Source: Clostridia bacterium | GTDB taxonomy: Bacteria > Bacillota_A > Clostridia > Oscillospirales > CAG-272 | Assembly: GCA_017414605.1 (NCBI GenBank) | Contig: JAFQLG010000007.1 | Location: 1 to 5,518 of the forward strand | Direction of reading: 5' to 3' | Length of the DNA: 5,518 bases | Shown: piece after piece, positions 1 to 5,518 of the stretch | Layout: every line of letters begins with the position of its first letter | Numbering within the stretch: the first letter of the stretch is position 1 | Notes under the pieces: generated by a model | What the model was told of the DNA's origin: nothing | The model's input: the letters and a program-made list of their open reading frames with translations, nothing else | Databases searched by the model: none | Position numbers and translations under genes: made by a program

Positions 1-262
1 CGCAACGGAGAGCCTCTTCCTTAATAGCGTCGGCTGCCTGCTTCTTTGTTCCTACGAAAAGGATGTTTCCGCCCTGAGCAGAAAGCTCACGAACGAACAT
101 ATAAGCCTCTTCAAACTTCTTAACGGTCTTCTGAAGGTCGATGATGTAGATGCCGTTTCTTTCAGTAAAGATGTACTCCTGCATCTTGGGGTTCCATCTT
201 CTTGTGTGATGTCCGAAATGGACGCCAGCTTCGAGAAGCTGCTTGATTGAGATTACAGACAT
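1..262 (-). CDS. rpsB: 30S ribosomal protein S2, N-terminal part (runs off left edge)
   Basis: S2 is a structural protein of the small ribosomal subunit, binding 16S rRNA near the head-body junction and needed for translation initiation with S1-like functions. The first 87 residues are visible. They start [20 protein letters not shown], followed by RRWNPKM, which is the hallmark N-terminal signature of the S2 family, then the conserved IIDLQKT and the [11 protein letters not shown] segment. The ATG at 262-260 is chosen because this is the family's usual N-terminus and a GGAGG lies 8 nt upstream (271-275). The gene is cut by the window edge; full S2 is usually about 230-260 residues. In most bacteria tsf (EF-Ts) follows, but that would be outside the window. 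Expression is probably from the dedicated promoter at 409-437 through a structured leader. The identification is very secure. Confidence 0.98.
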
Positions 263-403
263 TTTTATGTCCTCCTTCGGTTTTTTCCACCACAGTAGCT
301 TTGGCGATGCAATCTCCCTTCCTCTTTATCATTCCGGGAAACACCGGCACCGCAGACGTGGTACTGTGTGTGTATTGATATTTTTTGTGCAATCGCACAA
401 CAT
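263..403 (-). promoter_or_regulatory. rpsB 5' leader with nested long-range stems; possible S2 autoregulatory leader
   Basis: The untranslated leader from the predicted transcription start (about 403) to the rpsB ATG is about 140 nt, long for a simple mRNA. It can fold on itself. A CACAGUA element (transcript strand, 368-362) pairs perfectly over 7 bp with UACUGUG (297-291), extendable by 2 bp across one bulged G. Inside it, GCGGUGC (353-347) pairs over 7 bp with GCAUCGC (310-304), including one G-U. The enclosed loop holds a purine-rich stretch and a UUUCCC that can pair with GGGAGA. The closing stem ends 15 nt before the GGAGG. Autogenous repression of rpsB by S2 through its leader is known in Escherichia coli. 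That this leader does the same is inference from position and pairing only. The stems were found by eye, without energy calculation. Confidence 0.45.
385..400 (-). other. 16-bp inverted repeat at the rpsB transcription start
   Basis: TTGTGC and GCACAA are perfect 6-bp inverted arms around a 4-nt centre. The repeat begins about 3 nt after the predicted rpsB start site, so in RNA it would be a stem-loop at the extreme 5' end of the transcript, a placement known to protect bacterial mRNAs from 5'-dependent decay. In DNA it could also be an operator overlapping the start site. It is not a terminator of an upstream gene: it is followed on the transcript strand by A residues rather than U residues, and it lies after the -10 box. 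Confidence 0.45.
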
Positions 404-408
404 TGGCA

Positions 409-437
409 ATTATAGCATATTTATATATAAATTGCAA
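409..437 (-). promoter_or_regulatory. Sigma-A promoter of rpsB
   Basis: On the minus strand a perfect -10 box TATAAT (414-409) is preceded by TGC, giving an extended -10. A -35 box TTGCAA (437-432, four of six matches to TTGACA) lies at the ideal spacing of 17 bp, and the spacer is very AT-rich. Transcription would start around 402-404, about 140 nt before the rpsB ATG. Strong promoters of this form are typical of ribosomal protein genes in Firmicutes. The start site is predicted, not observed. Confidence 0.88.
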
Positions 438-448
438 TAACGCGCGAC

Positions 449-469
449 AATGTTTACAAAATATTTACA
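449..469 (-). repeat. Two direct 10-bp repeats one helical turn apart, upstream of the rpsB promoter
   Basis: On the minus strand TGTAAATATT (469-460) and TGTAAACATT (458-449) differ at one base and repeat with an 11-bp period. They lie between the ymxH stop codon and the rpsB -35 box, roughly 45-67 bp upstream of the predicted start. The position suits an AT-rich UP element contacted by the RNA polymerase alpha subunit, or a site for an activator binding on one DNA face. No known regulator consensus was recognised. Chance is possible in such AT-rich DNA. Confidence 0.35.
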
Positions 470-470
470 T

Positions 471-758
471 TTACCGCCACTTTTTCCGCGGTCTGCAGGC
501 GCAAAATGACGGTAATTCCTGCCGTTCTACCCTGACGAGAATGGCATCCTCTCCGATACATTCTATCTTGCACCAGGGGAGAATGATATCCTCTTTCTTG
601 TCAAAAAGCGACAGACCGCTCTCTGCGGTGACGGTTATTGACACGATGCTCCGACACTCAAGGTCGATCTCAATATCAGTTGGATATCCGAGCCTTTCGC
701 CACCGCACAGATTGATGACCTCAAGCGAGCAAAGCTCGCTCATTTTTATTTTTCGCAT
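471..758 (-). CDS. YlmC/YmxH family sporulation-associated PRC-barrel protein
   Basis: This 95-residue protein matches the YlmC/YmxH family of small PRC-barrel proteins found in spore-forming Firmicutes. Diagnostic segments are VINLCGGERLGYPTDIEIDL (residues 14-33), where family members usually have a VIN-x-x-x-G-x-x-LG strand followed by a DIEID-type strand, and IILPWCKIECIGEDAILVRV (58-77), matching the family's VIPW-x-x-I-x-x-IGED-x-ILV end. The molecular role is not well defined; family members are annotated as sporulation proteins, and PRC barrels commonly mediate RNA or protein contacts. The start at 758 is supported by GGAGG (766-770) 7 nt upstream; an internal Met at 743 has no comparable site. 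Seven cysteines (10, 18, 35, 63, 67, 86, 88) are many for 95 residues. After the barrel there is a short tail with CAC and a basic end (RPRKKWR). It starts 48 nt after the preceding gene, so it is probably cotranscribed. Confidence 0.88.
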   Translation of the reverse strand: MRKIKMSELCSLEVINLCGGERLGYPTDIEIDLECRSIVSITVTAESGLSLFDKKEDIILPWCKIECIGEDAILVRVERQELPSFCACRPRKKWR

Positions 759-791
759 AGCATTACCTCCAAAACAAAACTGCTTTGGGTA

Positions 792-820
792 ATTATATGC
801 CAGCCGTTATTTTTTGTTTC
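792..820 (-). promoter_or_regulatory. Weak candidate promoter for ymxH
   Basis: A perfect TATAAT (797-792, minus strand) lies about 35 nt upstream of the ymxH start, just after the preceding stop codon. At 17-bp spacing the -35 region reads GAAACA, matching only three of six consensus positions, and there is no TG extension. It could give a low-level internal start or be chance in a short AT-rich gap. No sporulation sigma-factor consensus was recognised. Confidence 0.22.
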
Positions 821-3500
821 TCTCTTTTGCTCTCGATATTAAGATCGCCGCGGCAAATGCCAAAAGATATACGGGAAGCGCGATAAATTCCACCAAATTT
901 ACGCCGCCGGTATACAGGGATTCAAGCAAGTGATCCTGCGTTGATATTCCCATCAGGCAAAGCATAAAGGCATAAGCCAACATGACGTACATCCAGCGGT
1001 TACGCCCTGCCCCTCCCTTGTCGCCAAAGTCCTTTTCTATAAAGGCAATTTCAAGGAACAACGAAAGCAGTATGGAAACGAAGGTAACGCCCATAAAGCC
1101 AATTCCCTCTCCAAGCACGCCAACGTAATGCAACACCGCCGCAAGCACGGCAACTATCGCAGAGGCAACGGCTCTTGCCACGATGCCGCCAAGTCCGCGC
1201 GAGAAGACCTCGGCAGGAGATCTGACAGTTCCCCCTTTACAACCACCCTCCGCATAGAGCAAAAACGGCAGCGTTGCCGCCATGGCGGCTATTGCAAGCA
1301 TCTGAAAAGGACTGATGAGCCAAACGCCCGACAGAGCCGTTATCACGGCAAAGGGCAAGGCAAGGCTCATAAGATTGCAAAACAGCTTGAGCGATACGTA
1401 AAGCGAAACGCTGACCTCTCTTGAAGATTTAAGGGCTTTGATTATGGATGCTATTCCACCGCCGCCCGAATGCGCGCGCTTTACTATAACACCTGCCAGC
1501 AATCTTGTCTGCGAGGAGCATCTGGGCGAGCTTTCGCATCCGCTCTTGAGGTTTTCTGCATAGGCAGAATCCTTATGGTCAGCGCTGTCGTATTTCAAGT
1601 CATCGCAGCTGATAACGACATCCGCCTTTGATAGCAGGTCATTGTTTCGGTTGTCAATTCCGAATGCAGCAACCCTTTTGCCATCTTGCTTGAGGTCATC
1701 TATTATCTGGGAGTACTGCTGGCTTGAAAAGCCTGCAAAAGCTCTGAAATCCTTATATTGAGATACAACGTCAGAAATGCTCTGATCGCCCGCCAACGCT
1801 ATCTTTTCTTTATAGAGGTCGGCAAGTCCGGCATCCGATATCAGCTCTGCCTCCTGCTCATTTTCAAGGAAAATATACGTTTCAACACCCATTGAGCCCA
1901 ACGTGGACAGCGACCATTCAAGCCCTTGCGCCACGGGTTGCTCAAGCGCGATAACGCCCTCCAGCGTGCCAACGCCGGCATCCTCCGACACGACGTACAG
2001 ACACATGCCGCCCTTTTTGCGCGTTTTATCGGACAGGCTCTTTATGTAGCCTACGTCAAGCTCGCCTATCTGCTCCGCCTCGCCCTCAAATCTCGTTTGG
2101 GTGCAATAATCAAGGATCTCATCGTCCTCGGTGAGCGCAACGCGGAACTGACGCTCTATCGCCTCAGCGCATACGTAGCCTCGGTTGCCGTCATCAACGT
2201 AATAAAGCGAGCGCAAATAAATGTCTGCCGCGGTATTGTCAAAGCCGCAGTCGGTTACGAATTTAACGAGCGTTTCGCCGACCTCGCCAAGCACCGCATC
2301 CTGCTCGTTGCCGTTCGCCTCAAGCGTTTTTACGTATGTATAAATGAGGGTAAGCAGTCTGTTATGATGCTCGTTTTGAGCGTTTAAGGTTTGCTTTAAG
2401 CCGTCAGCGGTATAGATGCCCGCAATTTTATAGCCTGATTGCGTTATTCCCGCTCTGCCGATGATCACAAGCGAATCTATATCGCAAAGCTTGTCCGCCG
2501 CAACGTAGCTTTTTACGGCGCAGGAGAGGTCACCCTCTCTTTTTGCCCGCTTCTGACTTGGCAAAAGCTTATGCACGTATGCCGAGCTGACGTAACGCAC
2601 GCCAACCGTTACAAGCTCTGCCGAGATCAAGGCTATTGCGGACAGCATCAGCATAAAGCTATCGGCAAACTCCCCTGTTCTCATTGTAAGAATGCTGATA
2701 AGCAGCAAAATGGGAACGGCGCAAAGAGAAACTATTCTGATCTTCTGAGCGATAGACTTAAGCTCTCGCTCCACAAGTCTTTCGCCCTGCGCTCTTGAAA
2801 GCTCACCGTCCTCAAGATATTCGGCAAGATAGACGTCCGGTCCGACGTTGGTAACGATAGCCTTTGCATTGCCTGACAAAATCGCAGAGCCAGCATAAAG
2901 CATATTGCATGCATCGGGCGCGCTTACGGCATCATCGGAGCAGTGCTCCGCCTCCGCCGATTTTTCAACCGTGCGGTTCTTAACTCCGCTGCGTGTGCTA
3001 ATAAGCTCTTTTACCACAAGGCTTTGGCTCTCCACGATTCTCGCATCGCAAGGCACTAGGTCGCCAACTCCGATCAGGATAACGTCACCCTCCACCAAGC
3101 TCTTGCCGTCCACAAAGAACCGATCTCCGCCGCGGACAACGCGAACGAGCGGACTTGAATAGTCACTTGCCGCCGCAGTTCTCTTTCGGGCTGCGCGGTC
3201 CATTATGACAAACACCGCCGCGCATATTAGCGAAAGGCACAAGGTGAACAAGCCCTGAAGCGAGCCGCCGAATATCACCGCCAGGAGAGATACCGCAAAA
3301 AGCAATATCATACACGGGTCGCCGAGCACCGCCAATATGCTTTCAAAAACAGAGGGGTACGGCGCGCAAAACAGCGATCTTCTCTTTGAATGCGGCAGCG
3401 CTCTTTGCCTTGCGCGGCGCATGGACAGCCCTTTTTCCGCATCGGTTTCAAGCTCTTTTTCAATTTCTGCGATACTATAGGTATGCCAGCTGTTTTTCAC
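807..3500 (-). CDS. Degenerate P2-type P-type ATPase homologue (pseudo-cation pump)
   Basis: This intact 897-residue membrane protein has the length and order of a P2-type (calcium/cation) ATPase. An N-terminal cation-ATPase domain begins WHTYSIAEIEKEL (5-17). Membrane pairs lie near 51-100 (M1-M2) and 255-305 (M3-M4), with six further segments from about 697 to 889 (M5-M10). The actuator domain keeps GDLVPCDAR (146-154) and NMLYAGSAILSG (199-210). The catalytic residues are gone. TGES is TRSG (169-172). DKTGTLT is IGRAGIT (347-353), placing Ile347 at the phosphorylated Asp. DPPR is QPVA (521-524). TGD is LEN (545-547). TGDGVND is FGIDNRN (613-619), losing both Mg-binding Asp, though the following SKAD remains. 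The M4 PEGLP is SAELV (293-297), and no KGA motif is seen. The fold is probably kept but ATP-driven transport is not expected. The GTG start has GGAGG 8 nt upstream and lies 32 nt after clpC. No stop or frameshift interrupts the frame. A diverged enzyme with relocated chemistry is a less likely alternative. Confidence 0.85.
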   Translation of the reverse strand: MKNSWHTYSIAEIEKELETDAEKGLSMRRARQRALPHSKRRSLFCAPYPSVFESILAVLGDPCMILLFAVSLLAVIFGGSLQGLFTLCLSLICAAVFVIMDRAARKRTAAASDYSSPLVRVVRGGDRFFVDGKSLVEGDVILIGVGDLVPCDARIVESQSLVVKELISTRSGVKNRTVEKSAEAEHCSDDAVSAPDACNMLYAGSAILSGNAKAIVTNVGPDVYLAEYLEDGELSRAQGERLVERELKSIAQKIRIVSLCAVPILLLISILTMRTGEFADSFMLMLSAIALISAELVTVGVRYVSSAYVHKLLPSQKRAKREGDLSCAVKSYVAADKLCDIDSLVIIGRAGITQSGYKIAGIYTADGLKQTLNAQNEHHNRLLTLIYTYVKTLEANGNEQDAVLGEVGETLVKFVTDCGFDNTAADIYLRSLYYVDDGNRGYVCAEAIERQFRVALTEDDEILDYCTQTRFEGEAEQIGELDVGYIKSLSDKTRKKGGMCLYVVSEDAGVGTLEGVIALEQPVAQGLEWSLSTLGSMGVETYIFLENEQEAELISDAGLADLYKEKIALAGDQSISDVVSQYKDFRAFAGFSSQQYSQIIDDLKQDGKRVAAFGIDNRNNDLLSKADVVISCDDLKYDSADHKDSAYAENLKSGCESSPRCSSQTRLLAGVIVKRAHSGGGGIASIIKALKSSREVSVSLYVSLKLFCNLMSLALPFAVITALSGVWLISPFQMLAIAAMAATLPFLLYAEGGCKGGTVRSPAEVFSRGLGGIVARAVASAIVAVLAAVLHYVGVLGEGIGFMGVTFVSILLSLFLEIAFIEKDFGDKGGAGRNRWMYVMLAYAFMLCLMGISTQDHLLESLYTGGVNLVEFIALPVYLLAFAAAILISRAKERNKK

Positions 3501-3508
3501 GACCTACA

Positions 3509-3513
3509 CCTCC
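3509..3513 (-). promoter_or_regulatory. Ribosome binding site fixing the GTG start of the pseudo-P-type ATPase
   Basis: GGAGG, within the longer AAGGAGGTG, is nearly fully complementary to the 16S rRNA 3' end and sits 8 nt before GTG (3500-3498). The next in-frame Met is residue 27, which would cut away most of the conserved N-terminal domain, so GTG is the real start. This shows that the catalytically degenerate protein still has strong translation signals. Confidence 0.85.
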
Positions 3514-3532
3514 TTTTTTCTTTTAATAAATC

Positions 3533-5518
3533 TTATTGGCAAGTTACTGAAAGCTCGCCGTTCTTTACCTCAACGAGAGCCTTGGTATATGACAAGAAAT
3601 AATCCGATATGATAAGCTCTGCAAGCTTGTCCTCAATCTGCTTTTGTATATACCTGCGCATATTTCTCGCGCCGTATTTCTGCGAGAAGGATTCGCGGGC
3701 GATATGTCTTGCCGCCTCGTCAGTATAAACGAGGGTTATTCCCTTTTCAATCAAAGCCTCTCCCAGCTGCGAGAGCATTATCTTTGCTATCTTTGCAAAG
3801 TCATCAGAGTCAAGACTGCGGAAGGTTATCACCTCGTCCACGCGGTTGATGAACTCGGGGCGCAAAAAGCTTGCAAGTGCCTTTTCGGTTTTTTCCTCGT
3901 CTGCGCGCGAGCTGTCGCTCGAGAAGCCTACAACGCCGTATCTTCCCTCCGAGCCCGCGTTTGTGGTCATTACGATCACCGTATTTTCAAAGTTGACCGT
4001 CTTTCCGTGCGCATCTGTGATGCGGCCGTCATCAAGTATCTGCAAAAGGATATTGAGAACGTCCGGGTGCGCCTTTTCTATCTCGTCAAACAGCACTACG
4101 GAATAGGGGCGGCGGCGTATCTTTTCGGTAAGCTGTCCTGCATCGTCATAGCCCACGTATCCGGGAGGCGAGCCGATTATTCTCGACACCGAGTGCTTTT
4201 CCATAAATTCCGACATATCAAGTCTTATAAGCGTTTCTGGCGAATCAAACAGATCTGCCGCAAGCGTTTTTACAAGCTCGGTCTTTCCAACTCCCGTGGG
4301 TCCTGCGAAAATGAAGGACACGGGCTTTCTCTTATACGAAACGCCTGCGCGGTTGCGCTTGATAGCGCGCGACACTGCATCAACCGCCTTATCCTGACCT
4401 ACAAGGCGCTCCTTTATCCTATCGGCAAGAGTATCTATTCTTACGTATTCGTTTTCGGTTATTGACGTTGCGGGGACGCCCGTCCAAAGCTCGATGACCT
4501 CCGCCACGTACTCCTCGGTAAGCTGAAGCGACTCGCACTCGCCGCTTATCTCGTCAAGGCGAGCCGAAAGGCGCATCTCCTCGGACTGCACTCTTGCTAT
4601 CTTTTCATATTTCTTCTGGCTTTCCTTATAGTCCGAGGTTATGGTTGCCTCCAGCTCCTCGCGCTCGGCTTTGAGCTTTAACAGCTTATCGCGTATCTCG
4701 AGCGACTCGTTAAGCTCGCTTGAGGACAAGGAAAGCTTGGAAGCCGCCTCGTCCAAAAGGTCGATCGCCTTATCGGGAAGGTATCTGTCAGTTATATATC
4801 TTTCCGACAGCACAACTGCGCGGTTAAGGATCCTATCGGGAATGGTGATGTTATGAAATTCCTCGTAATAATGGCTGATGCCGCGCAGCATCTCAACCGC
4901 CTCGCTTATTGAGGGCTCGTTTACCGTTACGGGCTGGAATCTGCGCTCCAGAGCCGAGTCTTTTTCAATATACTTTCTATACTCCGTAAGCGTTGTAGCA
5001 CCGATGATGCGGATCTCTCCTCTTGACAACGCGGGCTTCAGTATATTGGCGGCGTTAACGCTTCCCTCCGCGTCCCCCGTTCCAACGATATTGTGCACCT
5101 CGTCTATAACAAGGATAGCTCGTCCATGCTCCTTGACCTCAGCTAAAAGACCGAGAATTCGGGATTCAAACTGTCCGCGGAACTGCGTTCCTGCGACAAG
5201 CGCGGTGAGGTCTACCAAGAAAAGCTCTCTGTCGCGCAGCTTGTAGGGCACGTTTCCATCCGCGATTCTTATGGCGAGGCCCTCCGCGATAGCCGTTTTA
5301 CCAACGCCGGGCTCACCTATAAGGCAGGGATTGTTCTTTTGGCGGCGGCAAAGGGTCTGTATTACCCTCTCCATCTCCTTTTCTCTGCCAACTATGCGGT
5401 CCAGCTTTCCGCGGCGCGCGCTTTCGGTAAGGTTTTTACAGTAGGTAGTAAGATATTTATAATTTTTGCCGCCATCTGCCTTTTTTTCTTTGCCGCGAGC
5501 GCCGTTACCCTCTGATGC
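3533..5518 (-). CDS. clpC: ClpC-type AAA+ unfoldase of the Clp protease, 5' end outside window
   Basis: This hexameric chaperone unfolds substrates with ATP and feeds them to ClpP in the cytoplasm. The frame is open to the right edge; 661 residues are visible, beginning in a Gly/Lys-rich linker after the missing N-terminal domain. D1 (about residues 30-260) starts LTESARRGKLDRIVGREKEM and has Walker A GEPGVGKT (68-75), pore loop QFRG (112-115, usually KYRG), Walker B VIDEVH (137-142) and arginine fingers (192-193). The middle domain (about 263-333) is a short charged coiled coil with a UVR-like segment, as in ClpC and unlike the long ClpB domain. D2 has Walker A GPTGVGKT (406-413), pore loop GYVG (453-456), Walker B LFDEIEKAH (476-484), a VGF loop (530-532) that docks ClpP, and sensor 2 GARNMRR (616-622). 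All ATPase residues look intact. An internal Met at 5374 lies within D1 and is not the start. ClpE is a less likely alternative, because the N-terminus is not visible. It probably heads the unit with the downstream pseudo-ATPase gene. Confidence 0.93.
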   Translation of the reverse strand, partial: ASEGNGARGKEKKADGGKNYKYLTTYCKNLTESARRGKLDRIVGREKEMERVIQTLCRRQKNNPCLIGEPGVGKTAIAEGLAIRIADGNVPYKLRDRELFLVDLTALVAGTQFRGQFESRILGLLAEVKEHGRAILVIDEVHNIVGTGDAEGSVNAANILKPALSRGEIRIIGATTLTEYRKYIEKDSALERRFQPVTVNEPSISEAVEMLRGISHYYEEFHNITIPDRILNRAVVLSERYITDRYLPDKAIDLLDEAASKLSLSSSELNESLEIRDKLLKLKAEREELEATITSDYKESQKKYEKIARVQSEEMRLSARLDEISGECESLQLTEEYVAEVIELWTGVPATSITENEYVRIDTLADRIKERLVGQDKAVDAVSRAIKRNRAGVSYKRKPVSFIFAGPTGVGKTELVKTLAADLFDSPETLIRLDMSEFMEKHSVSRIIGSPPGYVGYDDAGQLTEKIRRRPYSVVLFDEIEKAHPDVLNILLQILDDGRITDAHGKTVNFENTVIVMTTNAGSEGRYGVVGFSSDSSRADEEKTEKALASFLRPEFINRVDEVITFRSLDSDDFAKIAKIMLSQLGEALIEKGITLVYTDEAARHIARESFSQKYGARNMRRYIQKQIEDKLAELIISDYFLSYTKALVEVKNGELSVTCQ

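Follow-up and report, generated by a model that had tools for sequence, protein, structure and literature searches.

The window analysed here is a 5,518-nt stretch of a Clostridia bacterium genome (contig JAFQLG010000007.1 of assembly GCA_017414605.1, positions 1 to 5,518), and its central gene (807..3500, minus strand) encodes an 897-residue relative of the P2-type cation-transporting ATPases with substituted catalytic residues. The gene starts with GTG and has no internal stop; a Shine-Dalgarno sequence, GGAGGT, can be read 7 nt 5′ of the start (3508..3513, minus strand), within the 32-nt gap to the next gene upstream. This neighbour (3533..5518, same strand; its 5′ end lies beyond the window) is a clpE-type AAA+ unfoldase gene in which AAA domains are seen. 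The unbroken 897-codon frame and the good translation signals noted in an initial annotation of this DNA are therefore both present.

The same annotation described the product as a full-length P2-type ATPase homologue, and profile search and modelling agree. PF00122 matches the protein at 7e-16, an AlphaFold2 model (predicted local distance difference test, pLDDT, 80.9; predicted template modelling score, pTM, 0.78) has the whole pump fold, and structure comparison of this model supports a full-length P-type fold. The match to TIGR01524 reaches 70 bits, the curated cut-off being 611. Judged from sequence, homology to P-type ATPases is far beyond chance, and both homology and the architecture of actuator (A), nucleotide-binding (N) and phosphorylation (P) domains plus membrane part place the protein in the superfamily. 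A distant family member, P0022, was likewise modelled with the whole P-type fold. In length, domain order, fold, ten membrane helices and A-domain core residues the window protein is like the P2A Ca2+-ATPases (LMCA1, SPCA1, SERCA) and the P3B protein MgtA; unlike these pumps, it lacks the phosphorylated Asp, the Glu of TGES, Lys515, TGD and GDGVND, and its ion residues in membrane helices M5 and M6 are changed.

P-type ATPases are generally regarded as defined by an aspartyl phosphate. In the window protein the alignment places IGRAGIT (2442..2462; residues 347–353) where DKTGTLT is expected, so that the phosphorylated Asp is replaced by Ile347. TRSG (2985..2996; residues 169–172) takes the place of TGES in the dephosphorylation loop of the A domain, QPVA (1929..1940; residues 521–524) that of DPPR, LEN (1860..1868; residues 545–547) that of TGD and FGIDNRN (1644..1664; residues 613–619) that of TGDGVND at the Mg site, all on the minus strand like the features that follow. 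These five substitutions agree with the initial annotation. In addition, LTEDD (2121..2135; residues 456–460) replaces KGAPD, which carries the nucleotide-site Lys515. The loop alignment around TGES is uncertain (in the large alignment described below the fourth TGES column falls on N175), and the string TGES occurs nowhere in the protein. For M4 the annotation stood in part: its reading of PEGLP as SAELV was reproduced in a smaller alignment, but the large alignment puts AELVT there (2607..2621; A294-E295-L296-V297-T298) and so retains the M4 glutamate; given the two readings, the register is not certain. In the large-alignment register this glutamate (SERCA Glu309) is present in the window protein and in 84 of 109 pseudoenzyme rows. 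From the P2A ion-site set Glu309/Glu771/Asp800 the window protein thus keeps E295 and has Ala714 (M5; 1359..1361) and Ala742 (M6; 1275..1277) at the other two positions; the same two alanines stand where a P3A H+-ATPase has Arg655 in M5 and Asp684 in M6. Having neither the DKTGT Asp nor the TGES Glu nor GDGxND, the protein almost certainly cannot run the P-type pump cycle.

Relatives were collected by several searches. A protein search gave 107 matches, including 18 close relatives (P0001–P0018; 32–67% identity); precomputed PF00702, PF13246 and PF00689 matches are found in none of these 18 and mostly present in the ordinary pumps listed. Scanning species genomes with an alignment yielded 25 loci, and the 15 that were inspected comprise nine members of the family (L001–L007, L009, L021), four loci retaining DKTGT (L008 and L013–L015) and a separate case made up of L010 and L016; profile searches of genomes supplied further members. 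The large alignment sets 109 pseudoenzyme rows (the window protein, 21 database proteins and 87 locus proteins; 108 distinct sequences in 106 clusters at 90%) against 53 intact pumps. P0008, with a changed C-terminus, was included; P0009, P0040, P0052, P0055, P0060, L144 and L179 were left out of both sets. Of 14 catalytic residues the pseudoenzyme rows retain none (35 rows), one (31), two (20), three (14), four (7) or five (2), and the intact pumps 13 (5 rows) or 14 (48 rows). DKTGT is found in none of the 109 rows, and GDGxND in none of them versus 52 of the 53 pumps. An aligned TGES Glu occurs in seven rows, subject to the uncertainty of the loop, and the string TGES anywhere in four; the Lys515 position is Lys in two. 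A single row, L166 (6169–8937, plus strand), has an Asp at the phosphorylation place, in DREGALT, and also shows TGEA. The family has a mark of its own, GGG (residues 680–682 of the window protein, aligned; 1455..1463), whose last two glycines (681–682) are present in 99 of the 109 rows and in no pump.

A decaying gene, or a sequencing or assembly error, might be suspected given the high divergence of the family and the origin of the titled member records, which are metagenome bins (Oscillospiraceae, Clostridiales or Clostridia; four of them, L004–L007, from sheep or goat gut). The frames, however, are open in more than 100 rows; the exceptions noticed are P0008 (with its changed C-terminus), P0009 and L144 (both short) and L091 (at a contig edge), and the search tool flagged single stops in G252 and G238. 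In five close orthologue pairs (among L003, L005, L006 and L081) the ratio of nonsynonymous to synonymous substitution rates (dN/dS) is 0.095–0.118, well below 1, and residues specific to the family are conserved. Together these data refute decay or error as the explanation, which we regard as having practically no chance of being right. None of the clpE-linked copies examined has an intact DKTGT. Low dN/dS, open frames and the missing DKTGT identify a retained pseudoenzyme, with its catalytic motifs lost and the protein kept by selection, rather than a pseudogene or an artefact, as the initial annotation had proposed. In the same close genomes dN/dS was 0.035–0.197 for the intact paralogue and 0.020–0.041 for ClpE; other pseudoenzyme pairs (L087/L089/L090 and L114/L116) gave 0.045–0.17. 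For the window protein against L001 the value is 0.25 with synonymous change near saturation, and three further pairs are too distant to judge. These ratios indicate purifying selection on the pseudoenzyme, weaker than that on ClpE.

In a sample of 295 genomes from a first GTDB family, 169 have a strong hit (best match below 1e-115, a cut set by hand; part of the 169 was inspected) and the 126 others were counted by hand. Five of 20 re-inspected genomes without a strong hit carry a P-type open reading frame (ORF) beside clpE (L183, L185–L188), dead in its visible part. In a sample of the order (394 genomes), 20 exceeded 440 bits, every one from the first-family sample. Confinement of the gene to this family was nevertheless ruled out: a second GTDB family within the order, to which G398 belongs, carries a sister branch with dead clpE-linked copies. 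There, 46 of 61 sampled genomes, none shared with the first-family sample, match member L211 above 250 bits, and other matches reach at most 221 bits. All 23 loci fetched from these 46 lack DKTGT, TGES and GDGVND, and in all 23 the gene is linked to clpE. Profile score is of limited use as a test for the pseudoenzyme, since the dead second-family copies L211–L213 score 382–394 bits and the intact pumps L214 and L216–L218 score 402–412 bits. A class-level search (391 genomes) added no new member among seven other best loci; all seven have DKTGT and none adjoins ClpE in the flanks available.

A tree of 70 rows places the 32 of the first family, the 13 of the second and the 25 pumps each on one side of a branch (Shimodaira–Hasegawa-like approximate likelihood ratio test, SH-aLRT, 99, 100 and 100), and the dead or live state changes once. 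An earlier 78-row tree, which counts P0052 as dead, agrees: it separates 27 pumps from 51 other rows at SH-aLRT 93, and with P0052 on the pump side 28 from 50 at SH-aLRT 100. (P0052 is another partly degenerate P-type protein, of 805 residues, with DKGGLIT, a retained TGD and AGEQMTT for TGDGVND.) Branches are long, the tree search was a quick one, and the longest rows cannot be placed with confidence. Because the trees split dead from intact rows with one change, the pattern fits a single loss of activity.

Erosion is less complete in the second family, where the Asp is kept in 4 of 23 rows and the Lys of KGAPE (Lys515) in 10 of 23. The four Asp-keeping rows (L250, L251, L253 and L256, with DKEAAFP, DKDVAFP, DKTVAFP and DKEVAFP) have lost TGES and GDGVND and are perhaps less decayed forms. 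They recall ERMA/TMEM94, an animal P-type protein of the endoplasmic reticulum in which TGES and GDGVND are missing but for which Mg transport is reported (PMC13322241). ERMA is the closest precedent for the P-type fold without these motifs, and it gives some footing to the idea that the window protein is a working pump with unusual chemistry, as do the residues kept in the second family. According to the same report, however, ERMA retains its Asp (Asp427 in DKQGI) and requires it for transport; the counts given above for the first family are 1 of 109 for Asp and 2 of 109 for Lys515, and the window protein, with Ile347, has neither. ERMA is also eukaryotic, and was likened by its described motifs. 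We consider an unusual pump very improbable. Another reported case of missing chemistry is mammalian ATP13A5, for which no detectable autophosphorylation is reported (PMC5837089). The initial annotation had stated that no family of this kind is described: we found no report of such a P-type pseudoenzyme family in searches of the open-licence PubMed Central (PMC) literature, the broader of which covered their top-ranked matches, and this agrees, but the lack of TGES and GDGVND is shared by ERMA/TMEM94, albeit with the Asp kept.

Four features go beyond that annotation: coupling to ClpE, the retained M4 glutamate, rewiring of M5 and M6 in relatives and a shift of constraint. As to the first, of the 85 pseudoenzyme loci whose upstream sequence extends over 600 nt or more, 80 have ClpE directly upstream on the same strand; none of 19 intact-paralogue loci does (Fisher p 1.4e-16, the loci not being independent). 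Loci were picked by match score, not by ClpE, and the median gap is 31.5 nt, an estimate obtained by aligning the L001 ClpE. Among the five exceptions, a ClpE ORF adjoins in L118 and L148 and lies past another ORF call in L111; L099 and L119 have none. The L001 neighbour carries Cys4/7/30/33, a VGF loop and AAA modules, and ClpE of E. faecalis is described with C3/C6/C29/C32 and VGF (PMC13125188); by the four N-terminal cysteines and the VGF loop we identify the neighbour as ClpE. ClpC was rejected, as the Zn cysteines are present and the 25 Pfam families shown do not include Clp_N; the clpE neighbour did not attain any NCBIfam cut-off.

The protein might instead regulate the intact P2-type paralogue, for instance as an inactive subunit that modulates the pump within a heterodimer. 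In 12 of 12 genomes where a second P-type gene was fetched, there was an intact P2 paralogue. Yet only in L174, among the mapped loci, was an intact P2 ATPase noticed near the dead copy (convergent to it), and genomes of the order for which our searches showed no dead copy commonly have intact pumps, though score cannot prove absence. This role appears unlikely.

If the protein served the envelope or sporulation and had nothing to do with ClpE, the neighbourhood would be an old gene order. Downstream of the pseudoenzyme gene in the window lie a ylmC/ymxH-like PRC-barrel gene (471..758, minus strand; TIGR02888, YlmC/YmxH family) and the 5′ part of rpsB (2..262, minus strand; ORFs located behind clpE in related genomes are 87–97% identical to it), and the order clpE, pseudoenzyme, ylmC, rpsB, tsf-like recurs in many loci. 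Ahead of clpE in L001 (5772–7595, plus strand) stand a DUF5711 gene and a CvpA (Colicin_V) gene, and many other loci have ORFs of like size; they form a conserved membrane gene group. In L001 the YlmC/YmxH, CvpA and DUF5711 genes thus flank the pair, and the order extends to rpsB and the tsf-like gene, as a ClpE-unrelated function would allow. The genes behind the pseudoenzyme vary, however (ylmC-rpsB, Mrp-like or others), and ClpE in front is constant. We hold such a function to be unlikely, though it is the alternative that we take most seriously. The Mrp-like gene, of ~280 residues, often lies 3′ of the pseudoenzyme, as in L142 (9489–10331, plus strand), whose product matches Mrp/ApbC iron-sulfur carriers below cut-off; similar ORFs occur in L141, L143, L145–L147, L150–L153, L157 and L159.

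Constraint within the protein was compared by mean pairwise identity in hand-picked sets of 8, 8 and 12 rows. In intact pumps the P domain is the most conserved (P1 79%, P2 65%), with M3M4 at 62% and A at 57%. The pseudoenzymes differ: in the core set A reaches 54% versus 33% for P1 and 40% for P2, and in the wide set 33% versus 21% and 20%. Most columns conserved at 99% or more across the 109 rows belong to the A domain (Pro117, Arg123, Gly138-Asp139, Gly146-Asp147, Asp152, Arg154, Asn199, Gly210), with Gly24 and Gly515 outside it. Over long distances, the identities indicate, constraint has moved from the P domain to the A domain.

The M5 position of SERCA Glu771 is Arg or Lys in 80 of 109 rows, and all 80 retain Asp or Glu at the M6 position of Asp800; the other 29 rows have neither the basic nor the acidic residue, with no exceptions (79 and 27 after 90% clustering). 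Joint loss marks all 28 rows of the branch that holds the window protein and is seen also in L098, which is outside the tree. No basic M5 residue occurs in the 53 pumps. A salt bridge between the M5 Arg/Lys and the M6 acid may be expected. The pair resembles that of the P3A H+-ATPase AHA2, in which Arg655 is at the place of SERCA Glu771, Asp684 overlaps Asp800 and Arg655 is discussed as a built-in counter-ion (PMC5387105), and a Lys-Glu pair of the gastric H,K-ATPase is reported to act similarly (PMC6706254); the difference is that the pseudoenzyme family lacks the catalytic motifs, and that the window protein has Ala at both places. These likenesses favour an ATP-independent ion or proton path, or a sensor, with M4 Glu, M5 Arg and M6 Asp titratable as in plasma-membrane H+-ATPases. 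However, neither charge is left in the branch of the window protein, basic M5 residues are missing from the second family, and a fixed positive charge is likelier to block a cation path than to open one. An ion path or sensor seems improbable to us.

That the protein is a dead enzyme is near certain; to the explanation as a whole, in which this full-length P2-type pseudoenzyme serves as a non-pumping membrane partner of ClpE(P), we give about an even chance. The protein has ten membrane helices and the A, N and P domains but not the residues needed to make and hydrolyse the aspartyl phosphate, and its production is probably coupled to that of ClpE, encoded the median 31.5 nt upstream. The more specific role that we favour, at somewhat less than even odds, is that of a scaffold or receptor anchored by its membrane part, with the A domain binding ClpE, a client or another partner. 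The A domain, as the best-kept part among distant members, could be the working surface. In most first-family members the fixed Arg or Lys facing the M6 acid might fill the cation site and lock the membrane domain in one state; the window's branch has neither charge and keeps the M4 Glu. The fullest version, in which catalysis was lost once in the ancestor of the two families, one of them plugged its cation site with an Arg-Asp pair and the protein became a dedicated membrane receptor of ClpE-ClpP, is possible, and we lean against it.

We know of no Clp adaptor that is a relative of P-type ATPases. The placement of a partner gene beside a Clp ATPase gene is like that of Clp adaptors (MecA and McsA/B for ClpC), as with mcsA/mcsB and clpC (PMC13125188). 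The difference is that clpE is described in the same source as typically monocistronic and its product as adaptor-independent, or autonomous, so that a fixed partner gene is unexpected. Among the papers listed from the open-licence PMC literature, judged by title and start of abstract, none links a P-type ATPase to ClpE.

Several observations weigh against a ClpE partner. The putative interaction is deduced from gene linkage, and the linkage may be gene order only, because the order truA-DUF5711-cvpA-clpE-ylmC-rpsB-tsf is often conserved. In the 20 re-inspected first-family genomes, 11 have clpE without a P-type gene directly behind it, as against the five with one (three showed only a ClpC-type Clp gene and one was undecided); thus ClpE does not require the pseudoenzyme everywhere. 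ClpE of E. faecalis is reported to work without an adaptor (PMC13125188). On the 78-row tree the M5/M6 covariation reduces to a single gain and a single joint loss, with L098 in addition, and so rests on few events; the pair is absent from the second family (basic M5 residue in 0 of 23 rows). Close pairs do not peak in the A domain, their profiles being flat or highest in another part (A 89% and P2 92% in one, A 80% and M3M4 88% in another), and the window protein and P0001 are 79% identical in N and 70% in A; with the distant sets favouring A, this means that A is retained over long times and is not under the tightest present constraint. Counts of catalytic residues in divergent loops depend on the alignment.

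Should the partnership with ClpE be real, the P-type fold would take part in protein quality control, as a platform for docking or as a conformational switch, and the family would form a class of membrane pseudo-pumps not described before. A large family of bacterial proteins that combines the whole P-type fold with little or no chemistry, and whose gene is tied to that of a protease, would show that this fold has uses other than pumping; for ClpE, otherwise described as standing alone (PMC13125188), the pseudoenzyme is a concrete candidate membrane partner. Two named members, P0007 and P0022, are annotated ‘cation-transporting P-type ATPase’, and automatic pipelines therefore credit these bacteria with pumps that they probably lack.

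Long forms of the pseudoenzyme, with 1215–1302 residues, were found in L137–L140. The separate case L010 (9962–12127, plus strand) and L016 (9926–12142, plus strand) consists of shorter degenerate P-type homologues of 722 and 739 residues, with DQDTL and QQDML for DKTGT and TKAT and TGAT for TGES; no clpE adjoins them in the ORFs shown, and their neighbours resemble hlyIII, comM and uvrC by eye.

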